Of a stretch of DNA of 40,165 nt, positions 4,978 through 19,735 are shown piece by piece. Both the position numbers and the translations under genes were made by a program. The notes beneath the pieces are model-generated. The model made no database searches, was not told the DNA's origin, and worked only from the letters and a program-made list of their open reading frames with translations. The first letter of the stretch is position 1, and the number at the start of each line of letters is the position of its first letter. Source of the DNA: Elusimicrobiota bacterium (lineage in GTDB: Bacteria; Elusimicrobiota; Elusimicrobia; UBA1565; UBA9628); the NCBI GenBank assembly GCA_028714015.1, contig JAQTNG010000005.1:1-40165 (forward strand). The letters run 5' to 3'.

Positions 4978-6419
4978 TCACCAAAGAAGCCCTGCTCGCC
5001 AAATTCACCGCCTACTCGCCGCACGTGGACCCGATCGCGCTCGAGCTCGCCTGGGACTTCGCGGAGAAGGTGCACGTCCATCAGGCGCGCGCCTCCGGCG
5101 AGCATTACCTGACTCATTGTGCGGCTGTAGCTGAGTCCCTTATAGAATGGCGCATGGACCTGCCCACGGTGTGCGCCGGGCTGCTGCACGACACGATCGA
5201 GGACACCGCGACGACCGAGATGCAGCTGCGCGCCGAGTTCGGCGAGGAGATCGCCATGCTCGTCATGGGGGTCACTAAGCTCGACGCCCTCAAGTTCGAG
5301 TCGCGCGACGAGGCGCAGGCCGAGAACTGGCGCAAGATGCTGCTCGCGACCGCGCAGGACATCCGCGTCATCGTGGTCAAGCTCGCCGACCGCCTGCACA
5401 ACATGAAGACGCTCAATTTCCTCAAGCGCGAGAAGCAGGAGCGCATCGCCGCGGAGACGATGGCGCTGTACGCTCCGCTCGCGCACCGCCTGGGCATGTT
5501 CAAGCTCAAGGGCGAACTCGAGGACCTGGCCTTCAAGTACCTGCATCCCGAGGAGCACCTCGAGCTCTCGCAGAAGGTCGCGGCCCTGGTCGCCGGCAGC
5601 GAGAAGAACCTCGCGGAGACCCGCGCGTCCATCGAGAAGGTGCTCGCCGGCACGAACATCCCCTGCCGCATCCTCGCGCGCAGCAAGACGCTCTGGTCGA
5701 TCTACGGCAAGATGGAGCGGCAGCAGAAGCCCTTCGAGGACATTCAAGACGCCCTGGGCGTCCGCTTAATAACCGACACCGTGGCCAACTGCTACGCGCT
5801 GCTCGGCATCATCCACACCAACTTCAAGCCCGTGGCGGGCTCCTTCACCGACTACATTTCAACCCCTAAACTTAACTTATACCGGTCGCTTCATACGACG
5901 ATCGTCAGCCCGACCGGCGAGTTCGTCGAGATTCAGATCCGCACCGAGGAGATGCACCGCTCCTCCGAGTACGGCATCGCGGCGCACTGGCGCTACAAGA
6001 CCGGCGAGTCCGCCCGCGACGCCCACATGGAGGAGAAGCTCAACTGGCTGCGGCAATGGATGGAGTGGCTGCAGGACCTGAACTCCCCGCGCGAGTTCCT
6101 CGACAGCCTCAAGACGGACCTGGAGTTCGACCAGGTCTTCGTCTTCACGCCCGCCGGAGAGGTGAAGGTCCTTCCGGCCGGGGCCACGCCGCTGGACTTC
6201 GCGTTCTCCGTGCACACGGCGATCGGCTTCTCCTGCGTCGGCGCCCAGGTCAACAACAAGATGGTCAAGCTCGACCTGGCGCTCAAGTCGGGCGACATCT
6301 GCAAGATCATCACGAAGAAAGGCTCGATGCCGAAGAAGGACTGGCTCAACTACGCGAAGACCGCGCGCGCCCGCTCGAAGATCCGCCACTATCTCCGCGA
6401 GCAGGGGATCGTCGCGTGA
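4974..6419 (+). CDS. RelA/SpoT homologue (HD hydrolase + synthetase + TGS), short form of 481 aa
   Basis: HD motif AGLLHDTIEDT; synthetase motifs FEDIQDALGVRLITDTVANCYALLGIIH, EIQIRTEEMHRSSEYGIAAHWRYK; TGS VFVFTPAGEVKVLPAGATPLDFAFSVH; terminates shortly after TGS. Confidence 0.92.
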   Translation: MITKEALLAKFTAYSPHVDPIALELAWDFAEKVHVHQARASGEHYLTHCAAVAESLIEWRMDLPTVCAGLLHDTIEDTATTEMQLRAEFGEEIAMLVMGVTKLDALKFESRDEAQAENWRKMLLATAQDIRVIVVKLADRLHNMKTLNFLKREKQERIAAETMALYAPLAHRLGMFKLKGELEDLAFKYLHPEEHLELSQKVAALVAGSEKNLAETRASIEKVLAGTNIPCRILARSKTLWSIYGKMERQQKPFEDIQDALGVRLITDTVANCYALLGIIHTNFKPVAGSFTDYISTPKLNLYRSLHTTIVSPTGEFVEIQIRTEEMHRSSEYGIAAHWRYKTGESARDAHMEEKLNWLRQWMEWLQDLNSPREFLDSLKTDLEFDQVFVFTPAGEVKVLPAGATPLDFAFSVHTAIGFSCVGAQVNNKMVKLDLALKSGDICKIITKKGSMPKKDWLNYAKTARARSKIRHYLREQGIVA

Positions 6420-15190: not shown

Positions 15191-16063
15191 GTGCGCGTCC
15201 TCCTTCTGCTCGCCGCTCTCGCCGTTCCCGCCGCCGCGCTCGACATCGAGCGCGAGGAGTACAAGATCATCGGCTGGAACGACGCCTGCTCGGTCGCCGT
15301 CGAGCGCTACGCCTATCCCCGGCTCGGGGAGGCCATCGTCGGCGAGCCGATCACCTCGCGCATCGGGACCTTGGCCATCGTCACCGAGAAGCCGACCGTG
15401 GAGACGCGCTGGGTGCTCGAGGCCGACGGCGCCAACACCTACGACAGGGTCGCCATACCGGCCTTCCGCAAGAAGCTCCGCCGGGCCGGCTTCGACCGCC
15501 CCGGCTTCGACGAGACGATCCGCGACGCCGCGACCGTCGAGTCGCCGGGATCGGCCGAGGTCATCCTGTCCACGGCCATACTCGAGGCGCGGCCCGACTT
15601 CTGGCCCGACACGGGGGTTTGGCGCCTGGGGCACGCGCACTACAACCCCCTCGGCACCTGCGCGCTGCTGGTCTACGAAAAGATCGGCGAGCGCGACCGC
15701 TTCAAGTTCCTCCTGACGCGCATCTACAACGCGAGCGCGCGCTCCGACCGCGGCCGCGCCCACACGACGAACGGACGCCTGCTGTTCAATAACGGCGACC
15801 TTCCCGCCGCGCTCGCCGAGACCGAGATCGGCGCCCGGATGGCGCCCGAGCTGGGCGGCACGCGCTACCACTACGCCGCGATGCTGGCGCTCAACGGCCG
15901 TCTCAGCTCCGCCATGAGCGAGCTCCTCGCCGCGATCAAGCTCGACGACCGCTTCGCCGAAAAGGCCGCGGAGGACCTGGATTTCGAATCGCTGCGCGTT
16001 CGCCAGGATTTCCAGGAGCTCATCCTCAAGAAAAATCGCGCGCCCGCCCCGAGCCCCCCCTAG
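15191..16063 (+). CDS. Exported protein with TPR-like C-terminal half
   Basis: Signal peptide MRVLLLLAALAVPAAALD; repeat-like NGRLLFNNGDLPAALAETEIGARMAPELGGTRYHYAAMLALNGRLSSAMSELLAAIKLDDRF. Confidence 0.6.
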   Translation: MRVLLLLAALAVPAAALDIEREEYKIIGWNDACSVAVERYAYPRLGEAIVGEPITSRIGTLAIVTEKPTVETRWVLEADGANTYDRVAIPAFRKKLRRAGFDRPGFDETIRDAATVESPGSAEVILSTAILEARPDFWPDTGVWRLGHAHYNPLGTCALLVYEKIGERDRFKFLLTRIYNASARSDRGRAHTTNGRLLFNNGDLPAALAETEIGARMAPELGGTRYHYAAMLALNGRLSSAMSELLAAIKLDDRFAEKAAEDLDFESLRVRQDFQELILKKNRAPAPSPP

Positions 16064-16083: not shown

Positions 16084-16089
16084 TATAAT
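16084..16089 (+). promoter_or_regulatory. -10 box (TATAAT) for the metH leader
   Basis: Consensus hexamer, located between the upstream stop codon and the riboswitch candidate. Confidence 0.6.
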
Positions 16090-16099
16090 CACCGTGCCG

Positions 16100-16153
16100 C
16101 AGGCGAGGATTTGTGCCCGATTGCCCCAGCCGCTTAACGGGAGCTAAAAAGGC
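16100..16153 (+). promoter_or_regulatory. SAM-II-like riboswitch aptamer
   Basis: AGGCGAGGATTTGTGCCCGATTGCCCCAGCCGCTTAACGGGAGCTAAAAAGG: ordered GATTTG, CCGxTTGC, AGCCxCTTAA and GCTAAAAAGG blocks recalled from SAM-II; P1 AGGCG/CGCTT and pseudoknot CCCG (16116-16119)/CGGG (16138-16141) can form; immediately upstream of metH. Confidence 0.75.
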
Positions 16154-16158
16154 CCCAG

Positions 16159-16185
16159 AAAACCACGCGTCGCGGCGTGGTTTTT
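16159..16185 (+). terminator. Intrinsic terminator / attenuator in the metH leader
   Basis: Perfect 10-bp stem AAAACCACGC-GTCGCG-GCGTGGTTTT followed by T-rich TCGTTT. Confidence 0.85.
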
Positions 16186-16201
16186 CGTTTACAGAGGAAC
16201 A

Positions 16202-19731
<3,530 letters not shown>

Positions 19732-19735
<4 letters not shown>

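Follow-up and report, generated by a model that had tools for sequence, protein, structure and literature searches.

Several kinds of SAM and SAH riboswitch regulate genes of methionine synthesis and the SAM cycle, and the metH gene of the Elusimicrobiota bacterium studied here lies behind a short leader with a promoter, a conserved block and an intrinsic terminator. The question raised by this locus is whether the leader is a riboswitch and, if so, whether it belongs to SAM-II, as an earlier note based on the sequence alone had proposed. The window analysed is the whole stretch of 40,165 nucleotides.

Organization of the metH leader

The TATAAT box, the conserved RNA, the perfect 10-bp terminator and the start of a full-length metH that the earlier note had read in this region were all confirmed in position. 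The features of the leader, all on the plus strand, are as follows.

16084-16089 (+), TATAAT -10 box; transcription probably starts near 16095-16098, a few nucleotides 5' of P1
16102-16152 (+), conserved block GGCGAGGATTTGTGCCCGATTGCCCCAGCCGCTTAACGGGAGCTAAAAAGG of an RNA of about 55 nt
16102-16104 (+), P1 5' strand GGC (pseudoknot helix), pairing with 16129-16131; covariation
16105-16112 (+), L1, GAGG plus AUUU; U16110-U16112 correspond to the third strand U8-U9-U10 of SAM-V (PMC6061858); the segment doubles as the putative antiterminator strand
16115-16117 (+), P2a 5' strand GCC, pairing with 16151-16153
16118-16122 (+), joining segment CGAUU; A16120, U16121 and U16122 correspond to SAM-V A18, U19 and U20 (PMC6061858)
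16123-16127 (+), P2b 5' strand GCCCC, pairing with 16139-16141 and 16143-16144, with A16142 bulged
16129-16131 (+), P1 3' strand GCC; covariation across leaders
16139-16144 (+), P2b 3' strand GGG-A-GC; covariation across leaders
16145-16150 (+), joining segment UAAAAA; U16145, A16146, A16147 and A16148 correspond to SAM-V U47, A48, A49 and A50 (PMC6061858)
16151-16153 (+), P2a 3' strand GGC; covariation across leaders
16159-16184 (+), intrinsic terminator with a perfect 10-bp stem, a 6-nt loop and a U tract to 16185
16159-16168 (+), terminator 5' arm AAAACCACGC, followed by the loop GTCGCG and the 3' arm
16175-16184 (+), terminator 3' arm GCGTGGTTTT
16193-16198 (+), Shine-Dalgarno-like AGAGGA, read in the sequence
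16202-19735 (+), metH, cobalamin-dependent methionine synthase, 1177 aa, TTG start

The metH frame is full-length by TIGR02082 (1191 bits against a cut-off of 1011) and by its Pfam domains; in relatives the gene begins at the same codon, which is either ATG or TTG. No -35 consensus was found at the metH leader of the window. All 24 leaders inspected have a -10 box ahead of P1, at a distance of 8-15 nt in 23 of them, so that transcription would begin just 5' of P1. A 290-aa open reading frame (window 15191-16063, plus strand), which has no Pfam match, ends just ahead of the metH promoter.

Distribution and gene context

We searched for metH in 58 relatives and then read the leaders. Most leaders of the host genus, together with those of several other genera and families, contain GGCGAGGAUUU..CC(G)AAUUGCCCCGGCC..GGGnGCUAAAGAGG, followed by a GC-rich terminator and metH; some metH genes in the host genus are without the RNA. 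Two covariance models (R1 and R2) built from these leaders were used to scan the host's class, and located the RNA at 48 places in 41 of 235 genomes, representing 22 of 64 genera. A leader with a degenerate pocket (L007) was excluded from the counts, and four weak R1 matches (L106, L108, L109 and L110), which are without CUAA, were dropped. The presence of the conserved RNA ahead of metH is much more than chance, given that it is kept there across genera and families, that terminators are enriched behind it and that -10 boxes precede it.

In a pattern scan of named genomes, nearly all copies were from Elusimicrobiota. The genuine copies elsewhere came from MAGs of Acidobacteria (two), Coatesbacteria (one) and Desantisbacteria (one), hosts that need care because MAG contigs are possibly misbinned. 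With R1 and R2, 2 of 297 sampled genomes in the phylum of one Acidobacteria MAG gave matches. Pattern matches in Microseira and UBA11372 (L041, L058), a Clostridia MAG (L052) and an Aminicenantes MAG (L062) were rejected, as they had no structure and scored at chance level.

Gene contexts were assigned by reading the translated downstream frames, with family searches for examples only. At the 48 places in the class the RNA is followed by metH (30), metY (seven, of which a tandem pair accounts for two), metX-metW (one), a methionine-aminotransferase-like gene (one), a DsrE2/TusA-like pair (one) or other and unknown genes (seven), and one place runs off the contig end; a methionine or sulfur gene is thus downstream of 40 of the 47 class copies with a readable gene. 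NCBIfam searches on representative proteins supported O-acetylhomoserine sulfhydrylase, MetX, MetH and the DsrE2-like and YedF/TusA-like proteins, and MetW fell just below the cut-off on a 150-aa piece. The Coatesbacteria copy lies ahead of a nitrate/taurine-type ABC transporter. A SAM sensor would be expected to control a range of genes such as this. Against such a role stand seven class copies, together with those from Acidobacteria and Desantisbacteria, whose downstream genes have no known methionine link.

Fold and covariation

The fold was examined in 50 distinct leaders aligned by their helices. Covariation was found in all three helices (P1, P2a and P2b), including P1, the pseudoknot helix, and compensatory changes recur in separate families. 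P1, which in the window is only 3 bp long, changes from GGC/GCC to AGC/GCU and GGU/ACC, and its outer pair is C-G, A-U or U-A. By shuffle tests, which ignore kinship between the sequences, the third position of P1, paired in 46 of 50 leaders, was equalled in 1 of 2000 shuffles; the third pair of P2a (G-C, U-A, A-U or C-G) is formed in 40 of 50 leaders against 19.8 expected, a value reached in none of 2000 shuffles, and the second position of P2b is paired in 49 of 50 against 37.7 expected. P2b also shows compensatory changes from GC/GC to GG/CC (six leaders) and from CCC/GGG to CGC/GCG (two leaders). Extra hairpins of varied lengths occur in L1 (L023, L099, L100), in L3 (L019, L048, L104) and at the P2b-P1 junction (L022), and leave the helices undisturbed. 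When the window leader is folded as a single sequence, the result is unremarkable (z = -0.66), so folding energy by itself is no evidence for the RNA.

The putative SAM pocket

In the crystal structure of SAM-V, U47 together with U8 holds SAM, the triple U20:A48.U9 faces the sulfonium, U19:A49.U10 lies below it, and A50 and A18 hold the aminoacyl end (PMC6061858). All of the SAM-V pocket residues (U8, U9, U10, A18, U19, U20, G21 and U47-A50) have counterparts in the window, namely U16110-U16111-U16112, A16120-U16121-U16122-G16123 and U16145-A16146-A16147-A16148. UUU, UUG and CUAA do not vary among the 50 leaders and UAAA is present in 47, and every leader has all three bases of the U:A.U triple by which SAM is preferred to SAH. 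Most leaders have A or C at the counterpart of SAM-V position 18, and one genus has U; SAM-II of Sinorhizobium meliloti has C at this position, as does part of the new leaders. We infer that the ligand is SAM and that the UUU strand would form a triplex of the SAM-V kind. Three leaders of a single genus (L028, L029 and L057; family f2, genus g14) depart from the UAAA and N-A/C-UU of all other leaders, with UAAG and UUUU instead, a variant that could alter recognition of the ligand's aminoacyl end.

Relation to SAM-II and SAM-V

None of the 4227 Rfam families matched the window at its gathering score. In a permissive search, RF00521 (SAM_alpha, the SAM-II family) aligned to 16090-16168 with 11.9 bits (E = 5; gathering cut-off 36), placing AUUUG, UUGC, UUAA and GCUAAA-AGG in register, and it exceeded its cut-off in none of 231 genomes of the class. 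As a positive control, the same model recovered two true SAM-II copies in S. meliloti with 85 bits; the model of the new RNA does not recognise these elements. Gathering and permissive Rfam searches of the window and about 36 homologous loci gave no usable match, and weak matches to istR, RNAI, rnk and Leu_leader were rejected because they arise from the GC-rich terminator stem.

Much of SAM-II is nevertheless present. The conserved pocket blocks of SAM-II (GAUUU, UUGC and GCUAAA) do occur in this order, and the new RNA has in common with SAM-II the H-type pseudoknot of P1, P2a and P2b, the AGG that follows GCUAAA, the association with methionine genes, and a promoter a few nucleotides 5' of P1 with a terminator 3' of P2 (PMC1273637). 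Set side by side with the S. meliloti element, both read GAUUUG..UUGC..nGCUAAAAAGGCC. In contrast, P1 has 3-4 bp in most new leaders and about 6 in SAM-II; P2b has 5 bp and is GC-rich, compared with 3 bp; a GAGG is added before UUU, so that P1 is not directly joined to L1; the UUAAA that follows P1 in L3 of SAM-II is absent; the joining segment is 5 nt long (4 nt in one genus); and L3 may hold an optional hairpin. The new RNA also differs in lying mostly before metH and in Elusimicrobiota, and the two covariance models are mutually blind. SAM-V was split from SAM-II over differences of a similar kind (PMC2704228).

RF01826 (SAM-V; gathering cut-off 41 bits) gave no match in the window, exceeded its cut-off in none of 231 class genomes and gave none at the RNA copies. 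The new RNA shares with SAM-V the SAM pocket and third-strand arrangement (PMC6061858) and a third hairpin that may be present in the L3 loop. However, SAM-V is translational, its P2a masking the Shine-Dalgarno sequence, whereas the new RNA has a terminator between aptamer and start codon. The SAM-I/IV, SAM-III, SAM-VI, SAM/SAH and SAH riboswitches also regulate methionine or SAM-cycle genes but have other folds, and they are absent from both the gathering-score and the weak Rfam matches of the window.

The best explanation is that the RNA is SAM-II-like in its working and yet forms a separate consensus group by covariance model, in neither family as defined. The proposed membership of Rfam SAM-II is therefore not supported by the scores above, and the distribution of SAM-II as defined is not extended in the way that had been suggested; the RNA stands beside SAM-II as a sister group and shares its pocket. 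The earlier note had named as contrary evidence the lack of an RF00521 match and the lack of covariation in homologous metH leaders, taken jointly: the match is indeed lacking, and the covariation is clear. No prior description of this RNA, and no SAM riboswitch in Elusimicrobiota, was found in the literature searched, which omits most subscription journals; Rfam-based annotation at present misses the RNA in every genome checked. The SAM-II/SAM-V pocket is thus found far beyond Proteobacteria and Bacteroidetes. Its compact form here, with helix lengths redistributed (short P1, long P2b), offers a way to test which elements of the fold are required for the pocket, and also whether the superfamily is ancient or was spread by transfer.

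Terminator and proposed switching

An intrinsic terminator follows 50 of the 52 copies, and a terminator score of at least 16 was obtained for 48 of the 52, against 20 of 600 random stretches. In nearly all copies the neighbour of the aptamer is this terminator, not a Shine-Dalgarno sequence. When the window transcript is folded as if halted before the terminator 3' arm, the P1 5' strand, GG and UUU are predicted to pair with the terminator 5' arm while P2 is formed. In a test aimed at this P1/third-strand segment in 45 leaders, one permutation in 5000 gave a better mean duplex energy than the leaders with their own terminators (two in 5000 once the set had been thinned), and covarying cases are seen in L029 (CCAGCG/CGCUGG), L112, L056, L100 and L030. 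A reversed-segment control also had a negative mean z (-1.07, against -1.85 for the real segment), and the evidence for the antiterminator is therefore weaker than that for the aptamer. Own and foreign terminators were not separated when the best helix anywhere was taken, nor when truncated-transcript pairing was computed with swapped terminators. In three copies from Acidobacteria a different strand of the aptamer, CUCCAACUU, is the one that matches the terminator, with 10-11 contiguous pairs in L033 and L128 and six in L048.

In equilibrium folding the window terminator forms with a probability close to 1, whether or not the aptamer is imposed as a constraint. Because the finished terminator wins in both states, switching would have to be kinetic, as is usual. 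The nascent RNA, starting just 5' of P1, would fold as an H-type pseudoknot (P1, P2a and P2b), in which the UUU of L1 would lie in the P2 groove and make up the SAM pocket with U-A-A-A and (A/C)-U-U-G, as in SAM-II and SAM-V. When SAM is absent, the P1 5' strand, GAGG and UUU would pair with the terminator 5' arm as an antiterminator and metH would be read through; when SAM is present, this segment would be locked in P1 and the triplex, the terminator would form and transcription would stop, turning metH off. The metH leader is thus very probably a SAM-sensing transcriptional OFF riboswitch of a separate group within the SAM-II/SAM-V superfamily, found mainly in Elusimicrobiota. The earlier view of a SAM-II-like transcription-attenuating leader on a full-length metH in a non-alphaproteobacterial host is in this respect supported, the host being a member of Elusimicrobiota. 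This phylum would thereby gain SAM-responsive control of methionine synthesis.

Alternative interpretations

The likenesses to SAM-II in topology, order of the pocket blocks, methionine genes, terminators and the S. meliloti motifs could mean that the RNA is an ordinary divergent SAM-II (RF00521) that deserves no separate name. We consider this possible but doubtful, because the two models fail to recognise each other, RF00521 missing every copy yet scoring true SAM-II with 85 bits; the changed lengths of P1 and P2b, the missing UUAAA and the added GAGG also weigh against it, as the separation of SAM-V illustrates (PMC2704228). A wider proposal, that the RNA is a third, undescribed class of the superfamily, at home in Elusimicrobiota with scattered copies in MAGs of Acidobacteria, Coatesbacteria and Desantisbacteria, and that its ligand preference has in addition shifted in the UAAG/UUUU genus or before non-methionine genes, seems rather unlikely when taken as a whole.

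The aptamer might instead act through a constitutive terminator, as an ON switch or on translation. The terminator present in both states at equilibrium would fit such action, as would the S. meliloti metA terminator, which is not predicted to respond to its SAM-II aptamer (PMC9373788), but antiterminator complementarity exceeds that of permuted pairs and it is a terminator that adjoins nearly all aptamers, and we judge this improbable. Slightly less probable still is another ligand, such as S-adenosylhomocysteine, methionine or a cobalamin, or a changed ligand in some lineages: MetH is a cobalamin-dependent enzyme, genes unrelated to methionine follow some copies, and f2/g14 departs from the others where the aminoacyl end of SAM is held, yet Rfam finds no cobalamin riboswitch in the window, the cobalamin-independent metY and metX carry the same RNA, and neither of the two uracils in contact with the sulfonium in SAM-V varies. 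Strong sequence conservation would also suit a protein-binding attenuator or a DNA operator, but such a site is very hard to reconcile with a covarying pseudoknot, with hairpin insertions at three separate loops (L019, L022, L023, L100) and with an RNA that directly follows the -10 box and has a pocket identical to that of SAM-II and SAM-V.

Atypical copies and neighbouring elements

One metH leader (L011, of genome G004) keeps the TATAAT box and the terminator hairpin, with the aptamer between them absent, as if deleted. Tandem copies of the RNA precede metY in two genera, at loci L113 (633-728 and 784-877, minus strand) and L127 (near 2032-2250); of the two copies in L113 the upstream one is followed by a terminator of its own, and none was detected for the downstream one. 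Genes without a clear methionine link follow the RNA in L102, L114, L099, L100, L107, L056, L124 and L125; these non-methionine contexts include a RepA-like ATPase, a helix-turn-helix protein and unknown proteins, and some resemble mobile-element genes. In L107, positions 2458-2535 match Hammerhead_II below threshold (32.7 bits against a cut-off of 37, E = 0.0088). In Acidobacteria (L033, L048 and L128) the gene behind the RNA encodes in each case a member of a single family of uncharacterised proteins, about 95 aa long (no NCBIfam match for the one protein tested), and purD comes soon after this gene in L033 and L128. The Acidobacteria MAG contig L048 also carries, at 5546-5639, a selenocysteine tRNA (74.5 bits).
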